Of a DNA stretch of 54,553 bases, positions 2,381 through 33,289 are shown piece after piece. The stretch's first letter is position 1. Each line of letters starts with the position of its first letter. The position numbers and the translations under genes are program-made. The notes below the pieces were generated by a model. It ran no database searches, was not told the DNA's origin, and saw only the letters and a list, made by a program, of their open reading frames with translations. This DNA is from Bacteroidales bacterium (GTDB lineage: Bacteria; Bacteroidota; Bacteroidia; Bacteroidales; P3): contig JAFTDW010000049.1 in NCBI GenBank assembly GCA_017454015.1, positions 1 through 54,553 of the forward strand, given 5' to 3'.

Positions 2381-4924
2381 CTAAGTGTTGGCTACAAGCA
2401 ACGCCTCCACTGGCACGGTGCTGTCCATCAGGCCCACGCGGGTGTCGGCGGCGTGGTGGTTCACGCCGGTGTAGGATAGCGAGGCATCCTCGTAGCGGCG
2501 GAATTTCAATATGGCGTCGTTCATCTGCGCACGGTTAAACACGCCGACGCGCAGCAACAGGTCGAAGTCGTCAATGGTCAGTCCCGTAACCCTCTCAAAG
2601 AGCGACGGCTCCAACTTGCGGATCACATCCTCGAGACTCTCCTCGCGGTAGTCGGTCAGGTACATGAAGATGGGTATGCGTGTGGCGAACTTCATCAGTT
2701 TCTCCTGCACCTCGCGCCGCTTGGAGCGGTATTCCTTCTCCTCGGCTGTCAGCTCTTTCTTCTTCTTGGGGTCGTCCCTCTCCCCTGCCTCGCGTTTCAG
2801 CTTCTTTATCCGCTCGGCGCGGTTGACGATGCTCTCTATGATGTCGCTGCCCATTGCACGGAAGCCCTCAATCTTCATGATGGTGGCCAGAGCCTCGGGG
2901 TTGTCGAGCACCCGCTGCAGGGTGGCGTTGTCCACGTTGACCAGCTGGGCGCTATTCCAACGGCGGGCAAGCAGGGTGCCGCTGGTGCCGTTGTCCACAA
3001 AGTCGAGTATCTCGGTGGCATCCACCCGTTTCATCGAACTGCCGTCAAACTGCAGTATGGGCAGGAAGTTGATAAACTCGTCCACCTTGTCGGTGATGCG
3101 ACGGTTGCTGTCCACATCCAGCTGATTGGCGTAAGTCACCACCTCGCGCAGGGCGCGGTTGGGGGCGAAATCGAACACATAGCAGGTGGGCTTCAGGATG
3201 GTTTTCTTTGTGGGGTCGTCCTTGTCGGTAGCCGTCCACGAGCTCTGCACGCGGAAGGCCGTCTGGAAATAGGTCTCGGGGCTGGAGCAGTTGCGCAGCA
3301 TCAGCAACCCGCCCAGCGGACGCAGCGTGACGCCTGTGGTCAGCTTGCCGCAAGTGAGTGTGATGGTGCGTGTCGTCAGTGGGTTGTCGCCCATTGCCTC
3401 GCGTACTGGCCCGAGAGCCTCTACACCGATACCGGCCTTGCTGCCGCTGCAGTTGATGATGGTGTAGTTCTGGTAGAAGCCGTTGGCGGGTCGGTGCAGC
3501 AGGGCCTCCATGGCGTCGCACGAGGCCACGTTGGGCAGGAACCACATGGTATGGGCACAGAGGTCGAGCAGGCGGGTATCCTCAAAAGGCAAAGCCGGAC
3601 GCACGTTGAGCGGCGAACTGCCGTCGCCGAAGATGGGCGCCCTGCCCCGAATGATGTCGAGCCATTTCTGCACAGCCTTCTCGTGGACGAAGGTCGCCAC
3701 TCCCCTACCCTTTGGCTGCTCCGCACGGAAGAACTCGTTGAGGTCGAAACCGTCCATATCCCACTGCTCAATCATCGCTCCGAGGTCCTGCGGCATCTGG
3801 TAGGTCATCATCACCATTGTGGGCATCTCCTCGTAGGGGCCGCCGACAGCCTCTTTGCGTGCCTGCTCGTCCTGGTAGGTCCAGTTGAATATCTGGCTCT
3901 CCATAAACTCGCCCGTGGCCAGTGCGCGGAACGGTGTTCCGCTGAGGTAGAGGTAATGCTTGCCGGTGATAGGCACATCCTCGTCGTCCCACGCACGGCC
4001 GCCCTCCACGTCGATGCCACTCTCGCTCATCACCTCATCCTCCTCCGCCTGACGCTTCTTGGCGTCGGCATCGCCGAGGTCGAGCAAGCTCTTGGCGTTG
4101 TCGTTCCAGGCACCGAAGTGATATTCGTCCAGCACAATCAGGTCCCAGTCGATGCTGTGCACCCACTCGTTCTTGGGCTTGATGTTGCCATAGCGGTCAC
4201 GCCCGAGGTAGTCCTGAAAGGAGCCGAACACCACCAACGGTTTCGATGATGAAAGCGACGGGAACCGTTCTTCCGAACGACTGCTGTAGTAGCGCCAGCC
4301 CTCAAAGTCACGGTGACGCAACAGGTCGTCGCGCCACGAGTCCTCCACGGCGGGCTTGAAGGTAAGCACCAATATTCTTTTGGCCTTCATTCTTTTGGCC
4401 AACTGATAAGTAGCAAAAGTCTTGCCGAAGCGCATCTTGGCGTTCCACAGGTAGTGGCTGGGGCGGTCGGGCTCCTCCGCGTCCATTTTGGCGAAATAGG
4501 CTGCCGTCTGCTCTACGGCCTGTTCCTGTTCGGGGCGCATCGTGTAGTCCAGGTCGCGCACCGTCTCTACCTGTGTGTCTCTGTGACGCACCGCTATGTA
4601 GGCGGCCTTGGCCTCGCGCAGCGAGCAACGGCACCACTCACCTATCAGCTCCTTGCCCATGCGGCGCAGACACTCGTGCAGGTCGTCGTCGGTGAAACAC
4701 TCGCCGCTGCCGTCGGCATAGAAAGCGTTGTCGTGCCACAGCAGGTGGTAGGTCTTCCATGGCTCGGTAATGGGGTGCTGCTCATCGATGCGAATGTTCA
4801 CGTCCGCCCGTTTCGTCTGCCCTATCTTAATCCAGCCGGGAAACGACGTGTCGTCGTACATATAAATCTGCGGCACCGAGCGCCGCATCTCGGGGAGTAT
4901 CTGTTCTATTGTCGCCATAATCAT
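2381..4924 (-). CDS. GIY-YIG/T5orf172-like nuclease fused to SF2 helicase (restriction enzyme)
   Basis: 847 residues. Residues about 18-115 resemble the T5orf172/GIY-YIG nuclease fold (IYMYDD, WIKIGQT, DLHECL, GEWCRC). An SF2 helicase follows: motif I AKMRFGKTFAT, motif II VLDEYHFG, motif III YLSGTPFRA, and a motif VI region YFQTAFRVQSSW. The end is highly charged and may be coiled coil. This combination is typical of ATP-dependent restriction enzymes partnered with adenine methyltransferases, and such genes lie upstream on the same strand. The likely role is cleavage or translocation on unmodified invading DNA. Start at 4924, with 4918 as an alternative. Nuclease chemistry is inferred from a divergent motif. 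Confidence 0.8.
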   Translation of the reverse strand: MIMATIEQILPEMRRSVPQIYMYDDTSFPGWIKIGQTKRADVNIRIDEQHPITEPWKTYHLLWHDNAFYADGSGECFTDDDLHECLRRMGKELIGEWCRCSLREAKAAYIAVRHRDTQVETVRDLDYTMRPEQEQAVEQTAAYFAKMDAEEPDRPSHYLWNAKMRFGKTFATYQLAKRMKAKRILVLTFKPAVEDSWRDDLLRHRDFEGWRYYSSRSEERFPSLSSSKPLVVFGSFQDYLGRDRYGNIKPKNEWVHSIDWDLIVLDEYHFGAWNDNAKSLLDLGDADAKKRQAEEDEVMSESGIDVEGGRAWDDEDVPITGKHYLYLSGTPFRALATGEFMESQIFNWTYQDEQARKEAVGGPYEEMPTMVMMTYQMPQDLGAMIEQWDMDGFDLNEFFRAEQPKGRGVATFVHEKAVQKWLDIIRGRAPIFGDGSSPLNVRPALPFEDTRLLDLCAHTMWFLPNVASCDAMEALLHRPANGFYQNYTIINCSGSKAGIGVEALGPVREAMGDNPLTTRTITLTCGKLTTGVTLRPLGGLLMLRNCSSPETYFQTAFRVQSSWTATDKDDPTKKTILKPTCYVFDFAPNRALREVVTYANQLDVDSNRRITDKVDEFINFLPILQFDGSSMKRVDATEILDFVDNGTSGTLLARRWNSAQLVNVDNATLQRVLDNPEALATIMKIEGFRAMGSDIIESIVNRAERIKKLKREAGERDDPKKKKELTAEEKEYRSKRREVQEKLMKFATRIPIFMYLTDYREESLEDVIRKLEPSLFERVTGLTIDDFDLLLRVGVFNRAQMNDAILKFRRYEDASLSYTGVNHHAADTRVGLMDSTVPVEALLVANT

Positions 4925-4967
4925 TTTCGTTTATGGCGCTCTAAGAAAAAAACTTATTGTAGAAAGA

Positions 4968-5282
4968 CTAGTAGTTGAGGAGACTGTGAACTGCGTCGCG
5001 GATAATAATCATGTCGCTTCCGTCTTTGTTGACAAGCACCTCGTAGGCAAAGTGGAAATCTTCGCAGATGAATTCCTGCCAGTCATGCTCTATCCACTTC
5101 TGCCTACGGCTGGCTTTATGGAAGATGGCGTAATAATCTTTCAGCGACCTTATGCCCTCGTATAGCCGACGCTTCTTTCTCTCTACAGTATCTTCGCTCA
5201 ACGTGTGTTTGTATCGCGCCAATGCGGCCTCATAGAAGTCGTCAATGGCCCAATGAACCTCGGGTTCTATTACAATTCTCAT
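4968..5282 (-). CDS. RelE/ParE-type toxin
   Basis: 104 residues with the compact basic fold pattern of the RelE/ParE superfamily: an N-terminal strand (RIVIEPEV), two charged helices (RYKHTLSEDTVERKKRRL), then strands ending in DMIIIRDAVHSLLNY. Such toxins cleave mRNA on ribosomes or block gyrase; which applies cannot be told here. The start codon overlaps the stop of the upstream antitoxin by 4 nt (ATGA), standard for a toxin-antitoxin pair. It lies 43 nt before the restriction helicase on the same strand, so it is embedded in the restriction-modification operon. Confidence 0.7.
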   Translation of the reverse strand: MRIVIEPEVHWAIDDFYEAALARYKHTLSEDTVERKKRRLYEGIRSLKDYYAIFHKASRRQKWIEHDWQEFICEDFHFAYEVLVNKDGSDMIIIRDAVHSLLNY

Positions 5283-5482
5283 GCGTTGGGGTGATAGAAT
5301 CGGTATATCTTTTCTGTGATGAGGCGTTCCGACTCCTCAAGGGTCATACAACGGGCAAGTTCCTCATCAGTAACCACACGTCTTGTCTTTTGGGTCTCTT
5401 CTGTTGCCGCACCATACACGGCTGGTGGTTCGCTGGCCACCGGGCTCATGCTATCCTCCTCAATGTCATTGTTGCGTATCAT
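5279..5482 (-). CDS. Antitoxin partner of the RelE/ParE-like toxin
   Basis: 67 residues, acidic, with a disordered-looking first half (DIEEDSMSPVASEPPAVYG) and a helical second half (DEELARCMTLEESERLITEKIYRFY). I do not recognise the family. Its size, acidity, position just before the toxin and 4-nt overlap support an antitoxin that neutralises the toxin and may repress its own promoter. The DNA-binding part is not obvious. Confidence 0.62.
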   Translation of the reverse strand: MIRNNDIEEDSMSPVASEPPAVYGAATEETQKTRRVVTDEELARCMTLEESERLITEKIYRFYHPNA

Positions 5483-5647
5483 ATCAGATAATGTTTTGTT
5501 ATGATAACGCGACTACTTTGTTTTTATTATTATTCTACAATAAATTATTTCAAAGAGCGCTCTGTTTTATATGTTTTTGCCGTTTTCCCTCGGCATGGGG
5601 TATGTGTGGATTCTACGATCCTTCTGTGTTCCCTCGGCGAAGTCGGC

Positions 5648-7141
5648 CTACTCCATCGGGCGTATCATGCTTTCGATAAAAGCAATCTCCTTGTCGTCCA
5701 ATCCGTATTTCTTATACAACATCTCGTCCGTCCACGGATGGGAGAAGTCTTGAATAGGGACAAACCTATAAACCTCTCTGGTTGTTGATTGCGTAACTTT
5801 TCTCAACATTATTAAAAACCTCATAAAACGAGTTTTTATATAGCTAATTACATTTTCACATTCTTTTCTTGATATGAAAGGGCCTATATAGATATACGTT
5901 TCAGAACTAACTGAATTAGGTTCTCCTATAAAAGGCACTCCCAGAATTGGATGTGGGAAGCTATCGCTTCCGCTCCCTGCTCTGGATATAAACACTTTAT
6001 ATTTTCCTATATCCTGCCTGTTCTTTGTTATTAAGTTCTCACTAACAAATGATTCTCCTTGGTTCTCATACAACTTAAGGAAACCGCTTTGACATTTACT
6101 ATCTCCATGAAAATTAGTACTCAGACCAAATGGCTGACGAGAGCTAACCTTCTCTGCTAACGTAGGCTCATTCCAAGAAATAACTTTGTGCAGAATACTT
6201 ATTGCCTCATTGTATCGAATAAAAACATCACTTCCTTTCTCTAACAAAGGTCTTGTAACAGGTTCACCTATTTCCCCATTCTGATGTGTAATAATGGTGC
6301 AATCACCTTGATTGTCTCTGTCCCAAAGAAAATAGCAAACGCCACCTTTTATCTGTACTCCAGGAAAGCATTCATATGCCTGAGGATAGTCGTGAATAAT
6401 GCGCAATCTATTGTCGTGCAACATTTCGTCTCTAAATTCATCAAGGCCTTTGCCCCCAGCATACCATCGTGCAGGAACTATCATTACAAGGTATCTTGGA
6501 GTGATTTTCTTTGCATGCGTGATGAATCTATCATATATTGGCATTGCACTTATACCAAAGCCACCATCACTCATCTGGTACGGCGGATTGCCTATGATTA
6601 CATCGAATTGCATTTTGAATATTTCTTTTATGGGTTTATGAATAAAGGGATAGGCGTAACTCTCGCGGGTGTCGGTGCGAAGGTACTCGCCCTTGCTGGC
6701 GCCACAATGCTCACAGCGGCCTTGGGCATTCCAGGTGTGTTTGCATCGTTGATACCACACATTACCGGCATCATTGCGGAAAGCCTCGGTGACGCTGTAC
6801 TTGCCGTTGGCCAGTTTGGAGCAGTAGAGTGTGCGGCGGCTCATCTCGGCTGTGAGGTCGGTGCAGGCAATGCCGAAGACCTGCTTTGTCATAATATGGT
6901 CGATACGTTGCTGCAGGTCAGGAATCTGCTGTTCCAAGCCGACGAGTAGCCGCTTGGCAATCTCACGGAGAAACACACCACTCTTGCAGCAGGGGTCGAG
7001 AAATCGTGTCTTCGGACTGCTGAACAGCTCTTGCGGCAGCAAGTCGAGCATCCGCGATGCCAACTCCGGCGAGGTGAAGACCTCGTCACTGGAGAGATTT
7101 GCCAAGCAGTTGAGAATGTCGGGACTATAGTTGTTCTTCAT
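5648..7141 (-). CDS. Eco57I-type adenine-specific DNA methyltransferase
   Basis: 497 residues from the ATG at 7141 (MKNNYSPDIL); the frame is open further upstream, but that part overlaps the preceding gene. It has a degenerate SAM-binding motif I (FLDPCCKSGVFLREIA), a zinc-finger-like insert (CKHTWNAQGRCEHCG) and the N6-adenine catalytic motif IV (IIGNPPYQM). A C-terminal target-recognition-like region follows. It transfers methyl groups to adenine in DNA and protects the host from the linked helicase-nuclease. It overlaps the preceding methyltransferase-like gene by 17 nt, so both are translated from one mRNA and may form a heteromer. CCKSG in place of the usual ACGSG is unusual. Confidence 0.86.
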   Translation of the reverse strand: MKNNYSPDILNCLANLSSDEVFTSPELASRMLDLLPQELFSSPKTRFLDPCCKSGVFLREIAKRLLVGLEQQIPDLQQRIDHIMTKQVFGIACTDLTAEMSRRTLYCSKLANGKYSVTEAFRNDAGNVWYQRCKHTWNAQGRCEHCGASKGEYLRTDTRESYAYPFIHKPIKEIFKMQFDVIIGNPPYQMSDGGFGISAMPIYDRFITHAKKITPRYLVMIVPARWYAGGKGLDEFRDEMLHDNRLRIIHDYPQAYECFPGVQIKGGVCYFLWDRDNQGDCTIITHQNGEIGEPVTRPLLEKGSDVFIRYNEAISILHKVISWNEPTLAEKVSSRQPFGLSTNFHGDSKCQSGFLKLYENQGESFVSENLITKNRQDIGKYKVFISRAGSGSDSFPHPILGVPFIGEPNSVSSETYIYIGPFISRKECENVISYIKTRFMRFLIMLRKVTQSTTREVYRFVPIQDFSHPWTDEMLYKKYGLDDKEIAFIESMIRPME

Positions 7142-7775
7142 ATCTATAAAGTTGTGTGTAATGCAACGGTGAACAGGTGCGTACTGGCTCATCAAAACTC
7201 TGCACCTGTCCCTGCTCGTCGAAAAGACTATACTGATGGCTTTGCGTGACAAGGAAATCAAACTGGAAGTCACGACGGGCAAACTGCATGCTGCCCGCAA
7301 TGGGTGTCCACTCGCAGAAAGTGATAGGCTTGCCGTCGGCGGTGCGATATGTCAGTGCATCGCCACAGACAATATTCTTCTGCAGCATATAGCGGAGGCT
7401 TTCTTTATAGCCTCCCGTAGTGTCCTTCTTGCCGATTTGACCAATAACTTCACCGAACAGCCTTTCTCGGCAGGCTTCGGCGTTGTCGGGCAGGATATCA
7501 ATGCCATAACAGGAGCCTACGGCAATAAGGCTCTGAAATTCCCACTCAACAGGAGATTTGACGGATTCAAGCAGCGACAGCTTACGCCGCAATATCTCTA
7601 TGAGGAAGTTGCCATCACCACAGGCGGGCTCAAGAAAGCGACTGTCGAGCCGGAACGATTCATCCCGCACCAAGTCGAGCATAGCATTTACCTCGCGTGG
7701 ATTGGTGAACACCTCGCCGTGGTCAGCCACCCGCTGGCGACTCTTAATCTGTTTTGTGTTTTCGTTGCTAGGCAT
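7125..7775 (-). CDS. Methyltransferase-like subunit with SAM motif but no NPPY
   Basis: 216 residues. It contains a good SAM-binding motif (FLEPACGDGNFLIEILRR, residues about 47-64) and a GSCYGIDILPDNAEACRERL segment typical of N6-adenine methyltransferases. The protein ends before any NPPY/F catalytic motif; the last recognisable part is CGDALTYRTADGKPI. The next gene has its own motif I plus NPPY. Either this is the remnant of a methyltransferase truncated by fusion of its end to the next gene, or a small partner subunit. A very palindromic 135-bp region lies directly upstream and could control the operon. Confidence 0.75.
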   Translation of the reverse strand: MPSNENTKQIKSRQRVADHGEVFTNPREVNAMLDLVRDESFRLDSRFLEPACGDGNFLIEILRRKLSLLESVKSPVEWEFQSLIAVGSCYGIDILPDNAEACRERLFGEVIGQIGKKDTTGGYKESLRYMLQKNIVCGDALTYRTADGKPITFCEWTPIAGSMQFARRDFQFDFLVTQSHQYSLFDEQGQVQSFDEPVRTCSPLHYTQLYRYEEQL

Positions 7776-7782
7776 AAGAAAA

Positions 7783-7917
7783 TCGTGGAACTTTGCTTAT
7801 GCTCACTTAGGTGTTCCACGACCTGCCTAGCAATTAAGTAAAGCCCACGATATTCTCGTGAGCGTTTACCGCTTTACCATTGCTAGGACTCGATTTGTGG
7901 AACTTCAAGTGAGCAAG
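7783..7917. repeat. Nested palindromes upstream of methyltransferase operon
   Basis: Several inverted repeats interleave here. TCGTGGAAC (7783-7791) pairs with GTTCCACGA (7813-7821). TGCTCACTT (near 7800) pairs with AAGTGAGCA (near 7908). CCTAGCAA/TTGCTAGG and GTAAAGC/GCTTTAC are nested between them around a small CACGA/TCGTG hairpin. Two alternative folds are possible. It fills much of the gap 7776-8021 between the two methyltransferase units, which holds no recognisable gene. Confidence 0.7.
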
Positions 7918-8021
7918 TGATAGCGAAAACGCTTTATAATATGTTAGTTATCTTCTATTATTATGTTTCTATATGTTATTTTTTAGTTATTATTACTTCA
8001 ATTTTCGTGTAATATGAAATG

Positions 8022-8711
8022 CTACCAGGAGAAAGAACTAGCAAAACCTCCTTTATTTACTTGGTAATTATATTGGTCTATAACATTGCCTATGCATAAT
8101 TCCATCCATTTATATAGGTGTTGTAAATCAAAATCTTCAACTGAGGTGTTTTTCTCCCTCGAAAACCATTTCGCAGCCATTGCATAATGTAATTCTTTGA
8201 AGTCAACAGCAGGCAACTTTTGAGTAGCATCAGATATCTCGTCTGTAAAAGTTTTATTATTCAGGTCTGAATTTGTAAATGCATTAAAATCGGATTTTTC
8301 TTCAATTGTACTATATCCCCCCCAATGCCAATGTGGCTGAGGATGTTCTAATTTTCCCTTTCTCTTTTTAACATCCCATTCTGCACGGCAAAAAAGATTT
8401 CCTGTTCCTTGAAAGAATTGAATGCTAATTCCTTTAAATTCATGGTTTGAAGTCAGTGATGCTTTAACACTTCGTCCCTGCAACGTCACACTAATGTGTA
8501 TGTATAGACTTTTTGAATTTTTAACCTTTAATAGATAGAAAAGGGGATGCCCGTCCATTACTATCGGGACTTTGGTATTTTTCAAAGAAAACACCCCTTT
8601 CTCCTCATTAACAAGCACAAACTGTAACACATCGTGACTTTCTACATATTTCGAAACAATTTTAATGCATTGTTTGTGCAGGTCTGATGGTTTTACTTGC
8701 GTACTAGACAT
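8022..8711 (-). CDS. Unknown protein paired with the 785-residue methyltransferase
   Basis: 229 residues, no family recognised. No signal peptide or membrane segment. Visible features are a His/Trp-rich stretch (HPQPHWHWGGYS, about residues 123-134), a strand-rich first half and a charged helical second half ending NYQVNKGGFASSFSW. Its start overlaps the stop of the methyltransferase gene by 8 nt, so the two are translationally coupled. A methyltransferase with one conserved partner suggests a specificity, restriction or effector role. Codon use is AT-rich like its partner and unlike the GC-rich chromosome, which supports joint horizontal acquisition. Confidence 0.7.
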   Translation of the reverse strand: MSSTQVKPSDLHKQCIKIVSKYVESHDVLQFVLVNEEKGVFSLKNTKVPIVMDGHPLFYLLKVKNSKSLYIHISVTLQGRSVKASLTSNHEFKGISIQFFQGTGNLFCRAEWDVKKRKGKLEHPQPHWHWGGYSTIEEKSDFNAFTNSDLNNKTFTDEISDATQKLPAVDFKELHYAMAAKWFSREKNTSVEDFDLQHLYKWMELCIGNVIDQYNYQVNKGGFASSFSW

Positions 8712-11061
8712 AAGAAAAAATACCTTTTACCAGTTCATCTAATGCATCAGTTTCCCAGTATATATCATCTTTCATTTTTTTTGCAAAACTCTTTAGCTCT
8801 GGAATGATTTGTTCAAACGTAGAATTTGAAAAATCTGGTAATGGGAGGTTCTTAATATATGCTTTCCCTAATTTATATGATTCTCCACCAGCCAATGGTT
8901 CGCCATATATCTCAAGCAACCTGTTCATATAACTTGAAGTAAAAAAAGCAAGATATATTTCGTTGTACTTCATTTGGGGTTTAAAGCCCTTACCCTGTAG
9001 AATCCACATACTACCACGTTCCACTACATATTCACCAGTATAGTCAATGGCGAAACTGCCTGCTTTCCCAAATTCGGTAGAGACTAGCTTGGGCCTCTTT
9101 TCCTCTTGCCAACTTCGATGTTCTGATAATTCCCACCAACGGGTATTTCCTCTCATAGAAGGACGCGAGACTAAATTATTTTTTGCAGGAAGAAGAAGCC
9201 TTTTGTACGTTTCAGGTAATATCTCTTGCAATTGTTCTTCTGTTGTGATAATTTCTAAGCCCTTTGTATGTGGATAGAAAACATAATTCATTCGATATAG
9301 ATGCCCTGAATCAATAGCCAAATTGTCTGTTGATGGTCTAAAATAAGAGAATTCGTTTGGGGGCAAAGACATAACAAATTCTTCTGGTACAATAAAAACT
9401 CTGTTCAAACCCGTTCTTGCACCAAGTAAAATATCAAATAATTCTCCAGCTTTCTTGAATAGCCCTTTTGCTTCTGCCGCATTCAAGCGATGCTTCAGCT
9501 CAAGATTCTGATAATTATCTATTCGCCATGACTTTTTATTAGTTTCCAATTGGGTCTCATATACTGAGAAGTTTTTTTCTGCTGCAATAGCATTTGTATA
9601 GCGATACTTTCTTAGAGCTTTTAGTCCCTCACTTGCAGCTCCTGCCACATTGTTTGTCCATAGGACTGTTGCTGTATTAACAGCATTTCTTTCTTTCGTG
9701 GCGACCAACATGCTGGTATAAGTTAAGACATTTTCGAATACATAGCTCCCCAATGCGCCAATTAATTTCGGCGTCATGCTCTCACGTAAGACATCTCTGA
9801 GAATTTCGTAACCCTGATCGTTGAGTAGGCGTGTAGGCACCACCGCACCAAGAACCCCACCATCTCCTACTGATGCTATCGCTTTCGCAAGGAAGGCGGC
9901 AGATAGATTCGCTCTGCCAATGTTCGGGAGTATTTGCAAAACATGTTCTCTTAACTGCGGTATGTCTTTCATTTTGTCCCAAGAGAGGAATGGCGGATTC
10001 ATTAGCAAAATATCCACATCTTTAGGCCAAACATTTTCTGGAGACATCGAATCACATTGTCGTATCTCTATTAAAAGATTCTCATCCCATTCTTGCTTTT
10101 CAAAGTTTAGCACAAATTTGGACATGACTACGGCGGTCTCTGCTTTGTCCCAACCAATAATCCTGATCGGTTTATCGAATTGTTTCTTTTTCAATTGTCT
10201 TAACGCTTCGACAAGAAAACCGCTAGCCCCACATGCAGGGTCAAATATTGTAAGTTTATCTTTTCCATCCAAATTTATATTTCTCAACGCTTCTTCCACT
10301 ATGGATCGCGCCACATATGCAGGAGTAAAGTATGCACCGTCCTGCATTGTTTCGTAACTGTATTTTATTTTCTCATCAGGGAACAAGCTTAGCTGAGGGG
10401 GAAGGTATGCAATATAATTAGCCTCCTCGAAAAGTCTACCTGCAGTATGGCGTAGTATTAGGTCAATCTCTGGTTTTAGCCATTTGTCAGTAAACAAGAC
10501 CCCGTTCATAAATCCTTCTGTTATCATGTTCCACCGGCGGTAGCCCATCGACTTATACACATCACCATCTTGTGTTGTAATTCCCCAATTGTTTAAATTG
10601 ACGTTTTCACCATCGCGACTAAAAGCGAATAAATATAGCAATGCCTTAAGTGAATCCAATCCACTATTTTCAGTACGAATCTCGTTGCGTATTTGACGAT
10701 AGGTCCTCAATACATAGGGAACAATACTATTCTCTATATTACCAGAGTCTTTTCGCAAATAATTAAAAAACTGATCTGAGTTTTCAAATACTATTTTTTC
10801 GTCATAACTTTCAACATGTGGTCTATCGAATCGGAAAATATAGCAAATGCCTCCATAAAAGGATACATATGCGTTATTCCCTGAAGACCAAGCCTTCTGT
10901 CTATACCATTCACTCTGCTCTGATGAGTTACCATCTAAACAGATATTATTTCTTGACCCATTCAGTAAGGCATAGCGATCAATATTCCTCGCTTGTTTAT
11001 GCATTAGAGGAACACTAAGCATACCCTGCTGCTCTATCATTCTCTGTATTCTTTCATTCAT
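8704..11061 (-). CDS. N6-adenine DNA methyltransferase (type I/IIG-like, with recognition domain)
   Basis: 785 residues. A helical N-terminal domain (about 1-230) precedes the methyltransferase core: FTPAYVARSIVEEAL, motif I IFDPACGASGFLVEAL near residue 290, and motif IV LLMNPPFLSW near 375. The C-terminal 300 residues resemble a target-recognition domain (ARTGLNRVFIVPEEF, LAFFTSSYMNRLLE, LGKAYIKNLPLPDF), the last matching the usual end of type IIG/PglX-like enzymes. No PD-(D/E)XK nuclease is evident at the N-terminus. It forms a two-gene unit with the 229-residue protein. It may protect DNA as part of an undescribed two-gene system or be a solitary methyltransferase. Confidence 0.88.
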   Translation of the reverse strand: MNERIQRMIEQQGMLSVPLMHKQARNIDRYALLNGSRNNICLDGNSSEQSEWYRQKAWSSGNNAYVSFYGGICYIFRFDRPHVESYDEKIVFENSDQFFNYLRKDSGNIENSIVPYVLRTYRQIRNEIRTENSGLDSLKALLYLFAFSRDGENVNLNNWGITTQDGDVYKSMGYRRWNMITEGFMNGVLFTDKWLKPEIDLILRHTAGRLFEEANYIAYLPPQLSLFPDEKIKYSYETMQDGAYFTPAYVARSIVEEALRNINLDGKDKLTIFDPACGASGFLVEALRQLKKKQFDKPIRIIGWDKAETAVVMSKFVLNFEKQEWDENLLIEIRQCDSMSPENVWPKDVDILLMNPPFLSWDKMKDIPQLREHVLQILPNIGRANLSAAFLAKAIASVGDGGVLGAVVPTRLLNDQGYEILRDVLRESMTPKLIGALGSYVFENVLTYTSMLVATKERNAVNTATVLWTNNVAGAASEGLKALRKYRYTNAIAAEKNFSVYETQLETNKKSWRIDNYQNLELKHRLNAAEAKGLFKKAGELFDILLGARTGLNRVFIVPEEFVMSLPPNEFSYFRPSTDNLAIDSGHLYRMNYVFYPHTKGLEIITTEEQLQEILPETYKRLLLPAKNNLVSRPSMRGNTRWWELSEHRSWQEEKRPKLVSTEFGKAGSFAIDYTGEYVVERGSMWILQGKGFKPQMKYNEIYLAFFTSSYMNRLLEIYGEPLAGGESYKLGKAYIKNLPLPDFSNSTFEQIIPELKSFAKKMKDDIYWETDALDELVKGIFSYV

Positions 11062-27249: not shown

Positions 27250-28533
27250 ATGGACGAACAGGCTAAATACAAGAAAAGAATTGCGGACCAAATGCTCAAA
27301 GAGCAGCTTGAAGCCGCAGGGGCAGTCCTTATTCAGGGACCGAAATGGTGCGGCAAAACAACAACAGCCAGACAACAAGCCTTGAGTGTTCTGAATATGG
27401 ATAATCCTAAAATGACAAAGGAATACCTGATGCTGGCAGAAAACGACCCGGAAATCCTGTTGGACGGTGATGTGCCACGGCTCCTTGACGAATGGCAGAT
27501 GGCTCCACAACTGTGGGACACGGCACGTCATGTCATTGACCGAAGGGGGAAACCCGGCCAGTTTATTTTTACCGGTTCAGCGGTGCCTGCCGACAGAAGC
27601 AAGATATCGCATACTGGCACCGGGCGTTTTGCATGGCTGACCATGCGCCCCATGAGCCTTTGGGAGTCGGGCGAGTCAAACGGCAGGATAAGTCTGTTGG
27701 ACCTTTTTGCCGGTCAGATGAAGTCGTGCGTTGCACCGGACTCTTCTTTGGAAGAGATGGCGTACATACTTTGCCGAGGCGGATGGCCGGGGGCTATAGG
27801 GCAGAAAAAGGAAACGTCACTGCGCATGGCAACAAACTACGTCAAAGCGATATGCGAGTGTGACATCTCACGCGTTGACGATGTGCAGAGAGACCCTGGC
27901 TTTGCACTGAGACTGCTGCGCACTTATTCGAGGCATCAAGGCGGACAGGTCCCCGTTGGCACTTTGTACTCCGATTTGACGACAAATGGAGGCAACTCCC
28001 TGACAGAAAATACCATATCCCTGTATCTTTCTGCACTGAAAAAGATATTTGTGATTGAGGACATGCCTGCCTGGAACCCCAATCTGAGAAGCAAGTCGGC
28101 CATCCGCACGTCGGACACCCGCTACTTTGTCGACCCATCGGTGGCCACAGCGGCACTAGGCATCGGTCCCAAAGACCTTATGAACGACCTTAAGACTTTC
28201 GGACTGCTGTTCGAAACAATGGCAGTACGCGATTTGAGGGTCTATGCCGACGCCCTCGACGGGAATGTGTTCCACTACCGCGACAGCAACGGACTTGAGT
28301 GCGATGCTGTACTGCATCTGCGCAATGGCAGTTACGGGCTTATAGAAATCAAACTCGGTGGCGAAACCCTTATTGAGGAAGGTGCCAAGACACTAAAGAA
28401 ACTATCCGACAAAATTGACACCACAAAGATGAAAAAACCGGCATTCAAGATGGTACTTACCGCGACAGGCGCTTATGCCTATAATCGCAACGACGGTGTT
28501 ATGGTGGTTCCCATCGGATGCTTGAAAAATTAA
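27250..28533 (+). CDS. AAA ATPase with DUF4143 domain, second copy
   Basis: 427 residues from ATG 27250. Walker A LIQGPKWCGKTTTARQQ, Walker B RLLDEWQMAPQLWD and sensor-like FIFTGSAVPA are the AAA_14 pattern. The middle region CRGGWPGAI and the C-terminal ECDAVLHLRNGSYGLIEIKLG (D...ExK) match DUF4143 with a PD-(D/E)XK-like fold. It differs enough from the 11594-12943 protein to be another subfamily. It has its own repeats and promoter, and is followed by an inverted-repeat element. Function unknown. Confidence 0.88.
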   Translation: MDEQAKYKKRIADQMLKEQLEAAGAVLIQGPKWCGKTTTARQQALSVLNMDNPKMTKEYLMLAENDPEILLDGDVPRLLDEWQMAPQLWDTARHVIDRRGKPGQFIFTGSAVPADRSKISHTGTGRFAWLTMRPMSLWESGESNGRISLLDLFAGQMKSCVAPDSSLEEMAYILCRGGWPGAIGQKKETSLRMATNYVKAICECDISRVDDVQRDPGFALRLLRTYSRHQGGQVPVGTLYSDLTTNGGNSLTENTISLYLSALKKIFVIEDMPAWNPNLRSKSAIRTSDTRYFVDPSVATAALGIGPKDLMNDLKTFGLLFETMAVRDLRVYADALDGNVFHYRDSNGLECDAVLHLRNGSYGLIEIKLGGETLIEEGAKTLKKLSDKIDTTKMKKPAFKMVLTATGAYAYNRNDGVMVVPIGCLKN

Positions 28534-28693: not shown

Positions 28694-29722
28694 TCATGAC
28701 GAGTTTCTCAGTATGCCTTCGGCTGCCTCTTGGTGGCGTTTGCTGATATACGCTGCAAGTTTTTTTGGAGACACGACTTTGACACCGGGGCCAAAACCCA
28801 TGAGTTCCCTCATTAGTTCGCGGTTGACGATGACTTTGATGCTGAACAGGGTCTCGCCATCCTCATTCTGCCGAACGACCTCTTGCGTGTGGTGTATTGG
28901 CTTGGTGATGAAATACATTGAGTCCATCGGCGACGCCCAGAACTCAACGGTCTGAGGACGATCGTTCTCGTTGCGAGACACGCCCACCATCTCGGAAAAA
29001 TACCTCTCCGCATCGAATGAGGCCGGTTTGACATACGGCTCGTCGGGCATGGGGCGGAGTGATTTGATACGGTCGAGGGCGTAGATATTGGTGTAGCGCA
29101 TATTTGTCTTGCGCTTTCCAAGCACGAACCAGCGGTTGTTGAACTCCTTGAGGACATAGGGGTAGAATACAAACGTCGACGGCGACTGGGCTTTGAACGA
29201 CTGATAGGTCATCTCTTGCGCACACCTGTTCTTCAGTGCGTCGTACAGCACTGGCACATATTCAAGCCCCCTCAGCCTGTCGTTGCGCTCCATCAAGATT
29301 AGCGGTTCCCTGCGTCCCACCACCATGCTCACCTGCTCCTCCATACGGCTCACCAGGTCGGACACACCGGACATGGCGGGAAATACCGTCATCTGTTTCA
29401 GCACCCCTACGGCCTCGGTCAGTTCCGTCATGTCGCGCTCTGTGAGCGGACTGTGAAGGATGCTGTAGTTCGGGTCCTCGTAGGTGTAGTATTTGTTGTC
29501 GACCACTATGATAGGGGCGTTGTAGCCCAGGCGGTCGCTACGCATGGTCTGTATGTCCAACTGCACGGTGCGGCGGCTTATGCCTTTCCGTATGCCCTCG
29601 TATTCATACAAGGCATCGGAACAGGCTTCTATGAGGTCGTCGAGAGTCCACTGCCTATAACGGTTGCTAAGGCAGTGGTCTATTGTCTTGTAGCGCAGCA
29701 GCGCATTGCGGTTGACAGGCAT
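28694..29722 (-). CDS. HTH-WYL transcriptional regulator, divergent from the Ro/RtcB unit
   Basis: 342 residues from ATG 29722 (MPVNRNALLRY). The N-terminal helix-turn-helix includes GISRRTVQLDIQTMRS. The WYL domain has FVFYPYVLKEFNNRWFVLG near residues 200-220 and a C-terminal WCX-like part (FGPGVKVVSPKKLAAYI). WYL regulators bind nucleic-acid or small ligands and control many defence and CRISPR loci. The gene is divergent from the Y-RNA/rsr/rtcB unit with about 200 nt between start codon and that promoter, so it is the best candidate for its regulator. This is inferred from position. Confidence 0.85.
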   Translation of the reverse strand: MPVNRNALLRYKTIDHCLSNRYRQWTLDDLIEACSDALYEYEGIRKGISRRTVQLDIQTMRSDRLGYNAPIIVVDNKYYTYEDPNYSILHSPLTERDMTELTEAVGVLKQMTVFPAMSGVSDLVSRMEEQVSMVVGRREPLILMERNDRLRGLEYVPVLYDALKNRCAQEMTYQSFKAQSPSTFVFYPYVLKEFNNRWFVLGKRKTNMRYTNIYALDRIKSLRPMPDEPYVKPASFDAERYFSEMVGVSRNENDRPQTVEFWASPMDSMYFITKPIHHTQEVVRQNEDGETLFSIKVIVNRELMRELMGFGPGVKVVSPKKLAAYISKRHQEAAEGILRNSS

Positions 29723-29746
29723 ATTTCTCCTACTTGTTTCGAGATG

Positions 29747-29754
29747 CAAAGATA
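29747..29754 (-). promoter_or_regulatory. -7 box of the WYL regulator
   Basis: Minus-strand TATCTTTG, 25 nt before ATG 29722. Confidence 0.7.
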
Positions 29755-29915
29755 CGAAAAATAACTCAAACAACCACTTCCGAGAATGCCGCGACAGGAT
29801 TTTTTCAGGTTGAAACAAGAAAAAAATCACATCAGACAACATTGATATTCAATAATATGAAAATATTTTCAAAAATATTTTTCGACTACGCAAAAAGATT
29901 GCGCACCGACTATAG

Positions 29916-29923
29916 TATCTTTG
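29916..29923 (+). promoter_or_regulatory. -7 box of the Y RNA/rsr/rtcB unit
   Basis: TATCTTTG followed by GCA. The predicted start near 29930 lies about 38 nt before the first Y-RNA closing helix. No other promoter of this type is seen before rsr, so the RNAs and proteins may share one primary transcript. Confidence 0.75.
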
Positions 29924-29967
29924 CAGCGAAAACAGACGGATGTTCATTGACAGATTGAAACAAGATT

Positions 29968-30081
29968 AAAGGTGGCGTTGCCGTAGTGGAGGATTTCTTC
30001 GTTGCACCAGAGCCCCGTGAGGCAAAACCTCACAATGGGCATTAAACAGTGCCTCCACGCTTGTAGCACGCTACCTTTTTT
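29968..30081 (+). ncRNA. Y-RNA-like RNA 1, with its own terminator
   Basis: Closing helix AAAGGTGGCGT (29968-29978) with ACGCTACCTTT (30068-30078), 11 bp including one G-T. The 5' internal loop is TGCCGTA and the 3' loop GCTTGTAGC. The inner helix is GTGGAGG (29986-29992) with CCTCCAC (30052-30058), followed by ATTTCTTCG. The head holds a GTGAGG-CAAAA-CCTCAC hairpin on a GCCC/GGGC base, and no tRNA-like part. The closing helix runs into six T, so this RNA can end by itself. The shared core with the next two RNAs and the rsr gene downstream support a Ro ligand. Confidence 0.78.
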
Positions 30082-30085
30082 GAAA

Positions 30086-30256
30086 AAGTGAGTGCCGTGG
30101 GATAGGAATACTTCGCAGTCCGGAAAGAACGCAGGGGGTAATCTTAAATGAGGTTTGTCGGAATAAGCGACACCAAAGCCTGAGGCGCGGGTTCAAATCC
30201 TGCCACCAGCTTTGCTGGTGTAGTTCATGAAAGCCTATCTGACTATAGCCTCACTT
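30086..30256 (+). ncRNA. Y-RNA-like RNA 2, with degenerate tRNA-like domain
   Basis: Closing helix AAGTGAG (30086-30092) with CTCACTT (30250-30256). Internal loop TGCCGTG on the 5' side, GACTATAGC on the 3' side. Inner helix GGATAGG (30100-30106) with CCTATCT (30234-30240), then AATACTTCG. The head carries a T-arm GCGGG-TTCAAAT-CCTGC (30187-30203), a 7-bp acceptor-like hairpin CACCAGC-TTT-GCTGGTG (30204-30220), a TA linker and a shrunken D-arm. An extra hairpin TGTCG...CGACA lies before the T-arm. It follows the YrlA plan of a tRNA mimic fused to a Ro-binding stem. Confidence 0.8.
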
Positions 30257-30262
30257 ATACAT

Positions 30263-30399
30263 AAGCAAGTGCCGTAGGAAAGGCATACTTCGGTCTGTAA
30301 AACCTATATGGGTCGCTGGTTCGAACCCAGCCGTGTTCCACCACACGTAGCTCAGTTGGGTAGAGCAATAATCAGTCTTTCCGCCCTGTCGCCTTGCTT
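30263..30399 (+). ncRNA. Y-RNA-like RNA 3, with permuted tRNA-like domain
   Basis: Closing helix AAGCAAG (30263-30269) with CTTGCTT (30393-30399). Internal loop TGCCGTA/GCCCTGTCGC. Inner helix GGAAAG (30277-30282) with CTTTCC (30377-30382), then GCATACTTCG. The tRNA-like head reads T-arm GCTGG-TTCGAAC-CCAGC (30315-30331), acceptor mini-helix CGTG/CACG closed by TTCCACCA, linker TA, and D-arm GCTC-AGTTGGGTA-GAGC (30350-30366). This is tRNA order cut at the anticodon and joined at the acceptor end. It ends 26 nt before the rsr ATG, so folding could affect rsr translation. Confidence 0.85.
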
Positions 30400-30425
30400 T
30401 ATAATAAAAACAAAAATCAAATAAT

Positions 30426-32021
30426 ATGAGCAACTACAATTCGATGTTGAAGGAAGAAAAGTCCGTAAAGAACTATGAGGGAGCCAAGGCATACACCATG
30501 ACCCCCGAGCTGGAGCTTTATACAGCCGTGGTGACCGCATCACTCAGTGATACGAACTACGAGAAACAGGACGAGCGGGTGGAGCGCATCAGCCAGCTCA
30601 TAGGCAAGGTGTCGCCGGAGTTCGTTGCCCGCCTCGCCATTTACACCCGCACGGTGATGAATCTTCGAAGCATCCCCTTGCTCTTGCTGGTGGAGCTGGC
30701 CAAGATTCATAACGGCGACGACCTTGTGGCCAGAGCCGTGGAGAAGACCGTGCTTCGTGCCGACGAGATTATGGAGCTGCTTATGTGCTACCAGTGGCGC
30801 AACGTTGCGCAAAGCGGGAGCAATGGGAACTTGCTCACAATGCCGAGCCGAAGCAACGTCACGGAACGTTCTCCGTCCCATGGCCCACGCAAGAAGCTCG
30901 GCAGGCTCTCCCGTCAGATACAGAACGGACTACAGCGTGCCTTCAACCGCTTCGACGAGTACCAGTTCGCCAAGTACGACCGCGACAACCTTGAAGTGAG
31001 GCTCCGCGACGCGCTGTTCCTTGTCCACCCCAAGGCCAAGGACGAAAAGCAACAGGCTCTCTTCGACAAGATTGTGAACCGCAGCCTGGAGACTCCCTAC
31101 ACCTGGGAGACGGAACTGTCGGCTCTCGGCCAGCAACATTTCGAGTCCGAAGAGCAGAAAAAGGATGCCTTCCGCTACAAGTGGGAAGAGCTGATTGACA
31201 GCAGGAAGTTGGGTTATATGTCCATGATGCGCAACCTTCGCAACATGCTCCAGTCCGATGTATCGCTGCCTAAGATGATGGATGTTGCCAGCCGTCTGTC
31301 CGATGCCGACCAGGTGGCGAGGTCCAGGCAGCTGCCATTCCGCTACCTCTCGGCTTACCGTGAGATTGAGAATGTGGATTCTCTCCACACCACGATGCTG
31401 ATGAACGCACTGGAGTCTGCCGTGAAATGCTCCGCCGCCAATATCGAGGGCTTCGACGAGAACACCCGTGTGCTTTTGGCTTCCGATGTCAGCGGTTCCA
31501 TGTGGTCAACGGTCAGTAAAAATAGTACCGTACGCCATTTCGACATTGGCATCCTGCTGTCCATGCTGCTACGCAGCCGCTGCAAGCAGGTGGTGGCGGG
31601 CATCTTCGGCAATGACTGGAAGGTGGTGAATATGCCAAGCGACAACATACTGATGGCCACCCGTCAGCTGGAGAAACTGGGAAACACAGTAGGATTCAGC
31701 ACCAATGGCTACAAGGTAATCAACTGGCTCTCGAAGAACAATATGGTGATGGACAAGGTGATGATGTTCACCGATATGCAGATGTGGGACAGCACCGCCA
31801 GCAATCAGTATATTGAGAAGTCATGGAGGCAGTACAAGAAGACAGCACCCGATGCTAAGCTCTACCTCTTTGACCTTGTCGGCTATGGCCAGTTGCCTAT
31901 CCGCCAGATGGAGAACGATGTATATCTGATTGCGGGCTGGAGCGACCGCGTGTTCGACGTCCTCTCGGCCATCGACAAGGGAGAGGATGCGCTGGATGTT
32001 ATTAACAAGATTGATGTTTAG
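30426..32021 (+). CDS. rsr: Ro60-like TROVE-domain RNA-binding protein
   Basis: 531 residues. N-terminal TROVE HEAT-repeat ring (about 15-340: MTPELELYTAVVTAS, FVARLAIYTR, LRSIPLLLLVELA, LSRQIQNGL). C-terminal von Willebrand A domain with MIDAS LLASDVSGSMW (D354, S356, S358) and MMFTDMQMW. Ro proteins bind Y RNAs on the outer surface and misfolded or damaged RNA in the ring, and in bacteria link Y RNA to exonucleases for RNA decay. Three Y-like RNAs lie directly before it and rtcB 6 nt after. Residues about 126-148 look like an in-frame insertion (see repeat at 30801). No Shine-Dalgarno is evident. Confidence 0.95.
   Translation: MSNYNSMLKEEKSVKNYEGAKAYTMTPELELYTAVVTASLSDTNYEKQDERVERISQLIGKVSPEFVARLAIYTRTVMNLRSIPLLLLVELAKIHNGDDLVARAVEKTVLRADEIMELLMCYQWRNVAQSGSNGNLLTMPSRSNVTERSPSHGPRKKLGRLSRQIQNGLQRAFNRFDEYQFAKYDRDNLEVRLRDALFLVHPKAKDEKQQALFDKIVNRSLETPYTWETELSALGQQHFESEEQKKDAFRYKWEELIDSRKLGYMSMMRNLRNMLQSDVSLPKMMDVASRLSDADQVARSRQLPFRYLSAYREIENVDSLHTTMLMNALESAVKCSAANIEGFDENTRVLLASDVSGSMWSTVSKNSTVRHFDIGILLSMLLRSRCKQVVAGIFGNDWKVVNMPSDNILMATRQLEKLGNTVGFSTNGYKVINWLSKNNMVMDKVMMFTDMQMWDSTASNQYIEKSWRQYKKTAPDAKLYLFDLVGYGQLPIRQMENDVYLIAGWSDRVFDVLSAIDKGEDALDVINKIDV
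30801..30869 (+). repeat. Possible in-frame palindromic insert in rsr
   Basis: Codons 126-148 encode NVAQSGSNGN, then LLTMPSRSNVTER. They interrupt the usual run from the WRN turn to KKLGRLSRQIQ. The stretch begins and ends with AACGTT and contains GAGCA...TGCTC. It aligns codon by codon with residues 210-233 of the UDP-glucose dehydrogenase at 45909-47306: NVA, a G, nine residues to P, then three to NV. Confidence 0.5.
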
Positions 32022-32027
32022 AGAATT

Positions 32028-33203
32028 ATGGAAAAAGTGGAAATGATAGGAACGACGGTGGTCAAGATGTGGCTCACCGACATTGACGACAAGGCCCGAG
32101 AGCAGGTGGCGAATCTAGCCTCGCTGCCCTTTGTTTATCACCATATAGCTCTCATGCCCGACTGCCACGCCGGTATGGGAATGCCAATAGGCGGTGTGCT
32201 GCCAACCAACGACGTGGTGATACCCAATGCAGTAGGCGTGGACATAGGATGCGGCATGCGAGCCGTGAAGACAAACGTCCGCGCAGAGATTATCGGGGCG
32301 GAATTCATGAGGAAGACTATCATGCGCGGCATCCGCAAGCGCATCCCACTGAGTATGGAACACCACAAAGAGCCGCAGGACGAGAAGTACATGCCAGAGG
32401 ATTTCGACATAGACAAACTACAGGTGGTGAAAAGTCAATACGCGTCCGTCTGCCGACAGGTGGGAACACTGGGCGGCGGCAACCACTTCATAGAGCTCCA
32501 GCGCGACGAGGAAGGGTGGCTGTGGATTATGATACACTCCGGCTCACGCAACCTCGGCAAGCAGGTTGGCGACTTCTACAACAACCGCGCCAAGTGGCTC
32601 AACGAGCTTTACTACAGCAAGGTGGAATCCAACCTGCATCTGCCTTTCCTGCCACGGGAGACACCGGAGTTCGACAGCTACTGGGCGGAGATGACCTATT
32701 GCATTGCCTTTGCCCGGTGCAACCGCAGCCTGATGATGGAGCGTATCGAGGAGGTTATTGCCGATGCACTTCCCAATGTGGAGTTTGAGCCCGCCATCGA
32801 CATAGCCCACAACTATGCGGCATGGGAGAACCACTTCGGCCACAACTGCATAGTCCACCGCAAGGGGGCTGTCCGCGCAAGGGAAGGCGAAACAGGAATC
32901 ATACCCGGCTCTATGGGCACCAGCTCCTACATCGTAGAGGGGCTTGGCAATCCCGACAGCTTCATGAGTTCCTCCCACGGCGCAGGGCGCACCATGAGCC
33001 GCACCCAAGCCATCAACACCCTCAACCTGGAGGACGAGATAAAGAAGATGAATGCCAAAGGCATCATACACGGCCTGCGCAGCCAGAGTGGACTAGACGA
33101 AGCCTCCGGCGCCTACAAGGACATCGACAAAGTGATTGCCCTTGAGTCCGACCTGGTAAAAGTGAAAACGAAACTGGAACCCGTAGCTGTGATAAAAGGA
33201 TAG
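32028..33203 (+). CDS. rtcB: RNA-splicing ligase RtcB
   Basis: 391 residues. It joins RNA ends bearing 2',3'-cyclic phosphate or 3'-phosphate to 5'-OH, using GTP and Mn2+. Metal and nucleotide ligands are visible: DCHAGMG (residues 45-51), Cys75 in VDIGCGMRA, GGGNHFIEL (N152, H153), H170 in IHSGSRNLG, H261, and the guanylylated His317 in SSSHGAGR. Length is slightly below E. coli RtcB. It starts 6 nt after the rsr stop, so the pair is co-translated. No rtcA cyclase or archease gene follows. Likely role: repair of cleaved tRNA or other RNA selected by Ro. Confidence 0.97.
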   Translation: MEKVEMIGTTVVKMWLTDIDDKAREQVANLASLPFVYHHIALMPDCHAGMGMPIGGVLPTNDVVIPNAVGVDIGCGMRAVKTNVRAEIIGAEFMRKTIMRGIRKRIPLSMEHHKEPQDEKYMPEDFDIDKLQVVKSQYASVCRQVGTLGGGNHFIELQRDEEGWLWIMIHSGSRNLGKQVGDFYNNRAKWLNELYYSKVESNLHLPFLPRETPEFDSYWAEMTYCIAFARCNRSLMMERIEEVIADALPNVEFEPAIDIAHNYAAWENHFGHNCIVHRKGAVRAREGETGIIPGSMGTSSYIVEGLGNPDSFMSSSHGAGRTMSRTQAINTLNLEDEIKKMNAKGIIHGLRSQSGLDEASGAYKDIDKVIALESDLVKVKTKLEPVAVIKG

Positions 33204-33208
33204 CTCTT

Positions 33209-33289
33209 GGGGGCGACGTCATCGGAATGGGGACGTGATTGAAACTTTTGGGCCGGTTTAGCGGGCCGATTGAGTTCAACATCGCCCCC
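33209..33289 (+). ncRNA. Structured 3' region after rtcB
   Basis: GGGGGCGA (33209-33216) pairs with TCGCCCCC (33282-33289). Inside, CGTC/GACG, TTGAA/TTCAA and a GGCC...GGCC hairpin can form. TTTACTTTAC follows. It starts six nt past the rtcB stop and lacks the TGCCGTR core of the Y-like RNAs. It may be a 3' stabilising structure, a terminator or a separate RNA. Confidence 0.5.

Follow-up and report, generated by a model that had tools for sequence, protein, structure and literature searches.

In Salmonella, the operon rsr-yrlBA-rtcBA is under the control of RtcR, according to excerpts of the published account (PMC7790460). Here we describe a related arrangement in a Bacteroidales bacterium. 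The stretch analysed, called the window hereafter, is the 54,553-nucleotide contig JAFTDW010000049.1, designated C31 in a genome of 2.31 Mb (63 contigs, 93.9% complete). Positions 28694-33203 hold a divergent gene for a WYL-domain regulator, a promoter, three Y RNAs and the genes for the Ro protein and the RNA ligase RtcB. We consider it probable that this locus is an inducible RNA damage-response operon, in which a WYL-switched transcript would comprise the three Y RNAs, Ro and RtcB.

As far as the excerpted account goes (PMC7790460), the locus resembles the Salmonella operon in that Ro, Y RNAs and RtcB belong to one unit that has a dedicated and possibly RNA-sensing regulator. Unlike in Salmonella, the regulator is a WYL protein and not the sigma-54/CARF protein RtcR, the Y RNAs precede rsr and are of three types, a shared palindrome is present, and RtcA is missing from the genome. 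The third RNA, referred to as type C, is similar to YrlA (RF02553), for which D, T and acceptor arms are described in the excerpts of PMC8394870; in both, D, T and closed acceptor arms are joined to a basal Ro stem. Types A and B are unlike YrlA, type B opening in the D loop and retaining the place of the anticodon arm.

PafBC, CapW and BrxR are regulators of stress responses or defence. Like them, the WYL protein of the window carries WYL and WCX domains behind an N-terminal winged helix; unlike them, it has RtcB, Ro and Y RNAs as likely targets and a palindrome of its own. WYL domains are presented in the excerpts of PMC4012209 as predicted ligand-binding regulators of defence systems. Jumbo phages also unite tRNA genes, Ro/TROVE and an RNA ligase in one genome, according to the excerpts of PMC7824862. 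In contrast to the phages, some of the relatives considered are bacterial chromosomal loci in which Y RNAs stand among tRNAs, and the array of the window is devoid of tRNA genes. Several Y RNAs near Ro are said to have been reported by Chen in 2014 for many bacteria already. Our search of the literature, which was incomplete and leaves priority open, yielded no recognised description of a WYL protein with Ro and RtcB, of a Y RNA with an anticodon arm or of tRNA genes within Y arrays; the type B class was found nowhere described in it. Judged from sequence, a variant of the Ro/Y/Rtc theme is present across the Bacteroidota, with a patchy distribution and with a putative new regulator, a predicted operator and an unusual Y class.

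The Y RNA array ahead of Ro

The intergenic stretch from the WYL to the Ro gene measures about 0.7 kb. The RNAs encoded there follow a common plan, in which an arm, TGCCGTAG, a helix and (T)ACTTCG are followed by the other side of the helix, four nucleotides, TGTnGC and the other side of the arm. Two anchors and two helices of this plan are scored by our scan, which superseded a single-anchor stem search that gave poor calls. In the window, RNAs 1, 2 and 3 score 57.5, 44.5 and 53.5, and nothing else exceeds 39.5 on either strand. Relatives were represented by 80 Ro loci of the genome_contigs collection (874,325 bp), the best 80 of 435 relatives. They yield 232 matches at a score of at least 42, versus 2 in the reversed sequences and none in the reverse complement (251 matches in the 80 loci at a cut-off of 40). 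Since the motif was learnt partly from the same loci, it is the controls and not the raw count that carry weight.

At least one Y RNA is present in 55 of the 56 Ro loci that are fully flanked. Their number ranges from none to seven, the latter in one locus, so that the triple array, taken as distinctive in the original prediction, is not. The span of 29930-30400 given there was right, and the borders can now be refined to 29970-30076, 30086-30256 and 30263-30399, all on the plus strand. The array adjoins a Ro/TROVE gene, which starts 26 nucleotides after the end of the last Y RNA. A basal stem interrupted by a conserved internal loop brings the 5' and 3' ends together; the basal helix is paired in 97.5% (type B) and 99.4% (type C) of cases, with changes on both sides. 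RNAs 2 and 3, of types B and C respectively, each contain a tRNA-like domain. Plan and company thus support the assignment of the three predicted RNAs as Y RNAs.

Against the Rfam YrlA model, RNA 3 scores 46.6 bits (E 3.8e-9) and RNA 2 scores 14.4 bits (E 7.6), while RNA 1 gives no match. The gathering score of RF02553, 69 bits, is reached by none of the three, nor by any sequence in ten relatives' loci. RNA 3, although laid out like YrlA, does not count as RF02553. Neither ARAGORN nor the Rfam tRNA model at its gathering score calls a tRNA gene within 29843-30425, and an interpretation of the window array as tRNA genes was rejected. Folding energies relative to shuffled sequences correspond to z-scores of -3.38, -1.85 and -1.88 for RNAs 1, 2 and 3. 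The values for RNAs 2 and 3 are modest, so folding energy supports both weakly; their support comes from comparison.

The three RNAs belong to three different types, in the order A-B-C. Type A (29970-30076) consists of the basal stem, the internal loop TGCCGTAG/TGTAGC and then a T run, without any tRNA-like part. Type C has a T arm (30315-30331), a closed acceptor hairpin (30332-30347) and a D arm (30350-30366), with the Ro stem occupying the position of the anticodon arm. In an alignment of 29 of 45 candidates, 95.9% of the type C structure is paired and 22 of 28 pairs change on both sides. None of 500 shuffles reaches any of five covariation measures, and structures slid along the alignment are paired in at most 45.4%.

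In type B, the D stem is split: GAAC (30127-30130) pairs with GTTC (30223-30226). A T arm (30187-30203) and a closed acceptor hairpin (30204-30220) lie in between. The Ro stem enters via the D loop, and the remainder would thus be a circularly permuted tRNA with joined acceptor ends. An arm of five base pairs and a seven-nucleotide loop occupies the anticodon position in the type B RNAs of 13 relatives, the best place among the D-stem matches having been picked by script. The alignment covers 14 of 19 sequences (L040, L077, two of L093 and L102 were omitted). All five pairs of the anticodon arm change on both sides, and 98.6% of its cells pair. Overall, 98.2% of type B is paired, as opposed to 89.8% in shuffles and at most 46.3% in slid structures; both-side changes occur in 17 of 33 pairs, the D stem is invariant, and four of the five covariation measures are reached by none of 500 shuffles. 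U33 is present in 12 of the 13 anticodon loops and an NCG (arginine) anticodon in 9, counts that are not independent, several loci being close kin (L039 and L040 share a loop). At its gathering score, the Rfam tRNA model recognises the type B RNAs of three loci (L036, L043, L068). In the window itself, the anticodon region is expanded and the arm non-canonical: 2 of 5 pairs form where the arm normally sits, and inspection by eye suggests a CAGG/CCTG stem that closes a loop of some 43 nucleotides.

A T arm is present in 106 RNAs, of which 54 were assigned to type C and 19 to type B; 27 remained undecided and 6 have no acceptor. In Bacteroidales loci, the order ahead of Ro tends to be A-B-C-(tRNA-Met)-D-E. 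These labels are rough: many RNAs are marked 'x', the first RNA of L042, labelled E, is likely mislabelled, and some Ro starts, as in L028, are placed too far upstream.

The WYL regulator and its predicted operator

The regulator gene (28694-29722, minus strand; 342 residues including the stop, coding 28697-29722 plus the stop codon) matches the Pfam families WYL (2.5e-8) and WCX (1.5e-10). In an AlphaFold2 model with a mean predicted local distance difference test (pLDDT) score of 84, helices at residues 5-61 and strands at 71-81 stand ahead of the two domains, and the secondary structure of this model suggests a winged helix. A -7-like box, TATCTTTGC, was recognised by pattern at 29746-29754 on the minus strand. 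An upstream ATG at 29842 is unlikely as the start because this box lies between both ATGs. The protein is 42-85% identical to 18 aligned homologues, and its family profile matches WYL chains of known structure, including PafBC, CapW and BrxR. It also matches CRISPR-associated WYL models in PADLOC, which has no match for Ro or RtcB. One WYL protein of this close family is found in the genome at E 1e-60.

A palindrome, CTACGCAAAAAGATTGCGCAC, at 29886-29906 is conserved in relatives as CGCAA-N5-TTGCG and constitutes the predicted operator. Within the 2.3 Mb genome, no other exact TACGCAA-N5-TTGCG was listed. Exact CGCAA-N5-TTGCG sites number 37 in the 80 loci; 33 of them fall in the 250 bp ahead of a start of WYL, RtcB, Y or Ro, zones that make up 8.6% of the sequence. 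When one mismatch is allowed, 45 of 71 loci have a site ahead of the first Y RNA or of Ro, as opposed to 26 of 1420 mononucleotide-shuffled stretches. The site is followed by the -7 box of the Y-Ro-RtcB unit, TATCTTTG (29916-29923, plus strand). This box and that of the WYL gene were found by their pattern, which we take to be the Bacteroides -7 consensus TAnnTTTG; scans for sigma-70-type promoters and for terminators gave nothing useful. TTTGC lies 15 nucleotides after the site in 51 of the 86 occurrences within the next 45 nucleotides, whereas in a control stretch 60 nucleotides further the commonest offset accounts for 11 occurrences. In the window, TTTGC follows the operator core at 16 nucleotides.

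The operator mostly accompanies this WYL family. A close WYL gene is present in the fetched flank of 33 of the 80 loci, two of them partial. For 20 of the 47 loci without an adjacent WYL, an orthologue was sought elsewhere in the genome. Operator and orthologue are both present in 11 and both absent in 6; the operator occurs alone in 1 and the orthologue alone in 2. The two thus agree in 17 of 20 genomes (Fisher p 0.0044); the orthologue of L035 is a fragment of 112 residues. Of 12 distant orthologues with E below 1e-100, eight are themselves preceded by a site; of the remaining four, one begins at a contig end. Where RtcB stands beside WYL, a site is found in 5 of 6 loci. Conversely, none of six genomes without this WYL has a site upstream of RtcB, L150 having a one-mismatch site inside the gene. 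Sites also precede separate RtcB genes (L052, L055, L070, L082), and Ro and RtcB therefore look co-regulated. Taken together, these patterns make a WYL regulon likely.

The original prediction held that the WYL protein takes the place of RtcR, and the co-occurrence with the operator lends support to this claim. The adjoining regulator is a WYL protein; the genome has no RTC-family match, and no genome-wide search for RtcR was made. WYL very probably replaces RtcR at this locus. The layout is not confined to this genome, the order divergent WYL-Y-Ro-RtcB being found in 8 of the 80 related loci (L029, L031, L041, L042, L043, L051, L065, L096); in L043 about 2.5 kb separate WYL from the operator.

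Ro, RtcB and related loci

Ro (30426-32021, plus strand) matches TROVE (2.2e-25) and vWA_Ro60 (1.9e-9), both above the curated Pfam cut-offs. Alignment, for which the TROVE chain 9l5y was used, reveals the MIDAS-like motif DVSGSM, so that the protein has the TROVE and vWA make-up of Ro60/Rsr. It scores 32.6 bits against the NCBI Rsr equivalog NF041674, for which the threshold is 900, and is thus a divergent Ro and not the NCBI equivalog. A comparison of segment lengths places a 23-residue insertion at approximately 30810-30878 (plus strand); the segment that bears it measures 34 residues in the window and exceeds 15 residues in 4 of 77 measurable relatives.

After a gap of 6 nucleotides follows RtcB (32028-33203, plus strand; 391 residues, Pfam E 1.5e-111). 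Its motifs DIGCGM, GGNHF, HSGSR, AHNYA and SHGAGR align with those of Pyrococcus horikoshii RtcB (1uc2) and presumably represent the metal and guanylate residues of the ligase. RtcB is single in the genome. No RTC-family match indicative of RtcA and no archease was found in this genome at its 93.9% completeness, which extends to the whole genome what had been noticed at the locus. The Y-Ro-RtcB unit has an operon-like layout. The analysis confirms the inventory originally made from the sequence, namely a divergent WYL, a -7 box, three structured RNAs, rsr, rtcB and the 6-nucleotide gap. The operator, the distinct RNA types and the Ro insertion are additions to it.

Ro occurs patchily: it is present in 7 of 190 genomes of the same family, in which RtcB is found in 29 and this WYL in 15, and in 6 of 393 genomes sampled from the order. 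In two sister genomes, G181 and G182, the locus reads WYL-operator-RtcB, with a leader of at most 67 nucleotides and with neither Y RNA nor Ro at that place; the proteins are 83% identical to their counterparts in the window. G183, a congener, combines operator and array with Ro and RtcB. No Y RNA was detected on either strand of the 5-6 kb fetched around six WYL-RtcB loci without Ro (L136-L141). It follows that Y RNAs go with Ro and that WYL-RtcB can stand alone.

Ro relatives also occur in 95 phage records, among them 20 named Bacteroides phages. Two contigs from viral collections, L239 and L240, carry three Y RNAs, tRNA-Met, Ro (78%) and RtcB (79%), with no WYL or operator in the stretch. 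A terminase-like frame, recognised by eye, ends just ahead of the array and suggests prophage cargo.

In 27 of the 80 loci, transfer RNA genes free of overlap with Y RNAs are found close to Ro, in the 1.2 kb that precede it or the 1.8 kb that follow; ARAGORN calls overlapping Y RNAs, such as Leu(tag) in L035, L039, L040 and L052, were counted as Y RNA. Their density near Ro is 311 per Mb (70 genes in 225,020 bp), as opposed to 44 per Mb in the remainder of the loci (23 in 526,762 bp). Up to 15 tRNA genes are found in a locus (L061, about 4037-7563; L100, about 7746-9052; also L068, L073, L089 and L090). A same-anticodon copy exists elsewhere in the genome for 13 of 15 array tRNAs in L061 (best identity 52-75%) and for all nine in L100 (52-67%). 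Array tRNAs are thus extra and divergent in the two genomes checked. The neighbours in L061 are a relaxase and a DUF2357-PDDEXK_7 nuclease; those in L100 are a DnaJ-domain protein, an aldehyde dehydrogenase, an AAA protein (9615-10757), which sits between the Y/tRNA array and RtcB, and RtcB. A single tRNA-Met(cat) with a presumably initiator-like body recurs inside the Y array, before type D/E, in L030, L039, L040, L043, L045, L065, L076 and L077. Arrays of tRNA genes near Ro also occur in 6 of 19 viral contigs (L247, L251, L252, L253, L256, L257), several of them, as in L247, L251 and L253, being long.

The locus of the window is flanked by an AAA_14/DUF4143 ATPase on one side and a DUF4954 protein on the other. 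The ATPase, beside WYL (27250-28530, plus strand), matches the candidate defence family PDC-S01 (E 1.1e-63).

A possible response to RNA damage

In the mechanism that we propose, WYL would bind the palindrome, which is placed where a -33 promoter element would be expected. Its ligand would be a nucleic acid, most probably in the form of RNA or tRNA fragments, on sensing which it would turn on a single transcript, thus acting by activation and not by repression. The Y RNAs would be excised from it and held by Ro via the basal stem, their tRNA-like heads perhaps marking, gating or tethering the Ro ring for RNA handling. RtcB would reseal 2',3'-cyclic phosphate or 3'-phosphate ends to 5'-OH ends, its substrates being most plausibly tRNAs broken by anticodon nucleases.

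A number of observations speak against such a WYL-switched repair operon. The Y plan was derived by eye from 14 upstream regions, window included, prior to scoring. One of the covariation measures of type B, further pair types, is reached by 22 of 500 shuffles. With at most two mismatches, the operator gives 90 and 87 matches in the genome of the window, barely more than the 66 and 74 of the reversed pattern used as control; in the 80 loci, just 40 of 68 one-mismatch sites fall in upstream zones. A site ahead of Y or Ro is lacking in 26 of the 71 loci, eight of which (L055, L060, L064, L070, L071, L075, L078, L082) have RtcB upstream and a site near RtcB or WYL. L077 has a site without an orthologue, L090 and L092 have an orthologue without a site, and L139 has WYL and RtcB without a site. 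The L100 genome, scored as having no orthologue, encodes a full-length WYL that is 31% identical, and many of the genomes are incomplete metagenome-assembled genomes. RtcB starts within 400 nucleotides after Ro in just 11 of the 80 loci. Finally, a repressor could likewise be held in register at the promoter.

The loose coupling of RtcB to Ro would fit an RNA decay machine, in which Ro is linked through Y RNAs to PNPase, as in RYPER of Deinococcus, and RtcB has no more than the promoter in common with them. This possibility deserves to be taken seriously, although it is not the one we favour. It draws strength from the best-studied bacterial Ro/Y pair, which acts as a PNPase tether according to the excerpts of PMC8394870 and PMC7790460. 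However, the operators ahead of separate RtcB genes point to co-regulation of Ro and RtcB, and the existence of WYL-operator-RtcB without Ro puts ligation at the core of the regulon. The latter arrangement would also fit the idea that WYL represses rtcB and that Y-Ro is a mobile cassette inserted between operator and rtcB, as suggested by the short leaders of G181 and G182 beside the array and Ro of their congener G183, and by the Y-tRNA-Ro-RtcB module of L239 and L240. The WYL relatives CapW and BrxR are repressors. We nevertheless find this explanation unlikely: the preferred 15-nucleotide register of operator and TTTGC suits an activator, as does the lack of TTTG 19 nucleotides before the -7 box of the window (by eye, from a consensus that we presume), and operators are also found ahead of Y/Ro where RtcB does not adjoin Ro.

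It is very improbable that the stretch between WYL and Ro encodes no independent RNAs and is instead made up of decayed tRNA genes or serves as a leader controlling rsr. The tRNA-like pieces, the YrlA scores below gathering and the modest folding z-scores of RNAs 2 and 3 could be read in this way, but the strong compensatory changes of types B and C in relatives, the recurrent order of types and the Ro-stem motif in nearly all fully flanked Ro loci (55 of 56) argue against it.

An inducible repair operon may also be part of a broader scheme, about which we are rather doubtful, in which the Ro loci of Bacteroidota would be WYL-induced islands that allow survival of tRNA cleavage, with type B RNAs as baits or reporters for anticodon nucleases and, in some relatives, a second set of tRNAs. 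With equal reserve, it may be imagined that type B, unchargeable owing to its joined acceptor ends but provided in relatives with a real anticodon arm, serves in this role, that RtcB repairs the cleaved tRNAs and that the divergent tRNAs are replacements. The window would then, just as speculatively, hold a small form of such an island, comprising types A, B and C but lacking tRNA genes.

For experiments, the locus offers a regulator, an operator and three kinds of Y RNA, the last of these separable by individual deletion. If true, the combination of a Y RNA bearing a tRNA anticodon arm with a divergent second set of tRNAs would tie Ro directly to tRNA cleavage.

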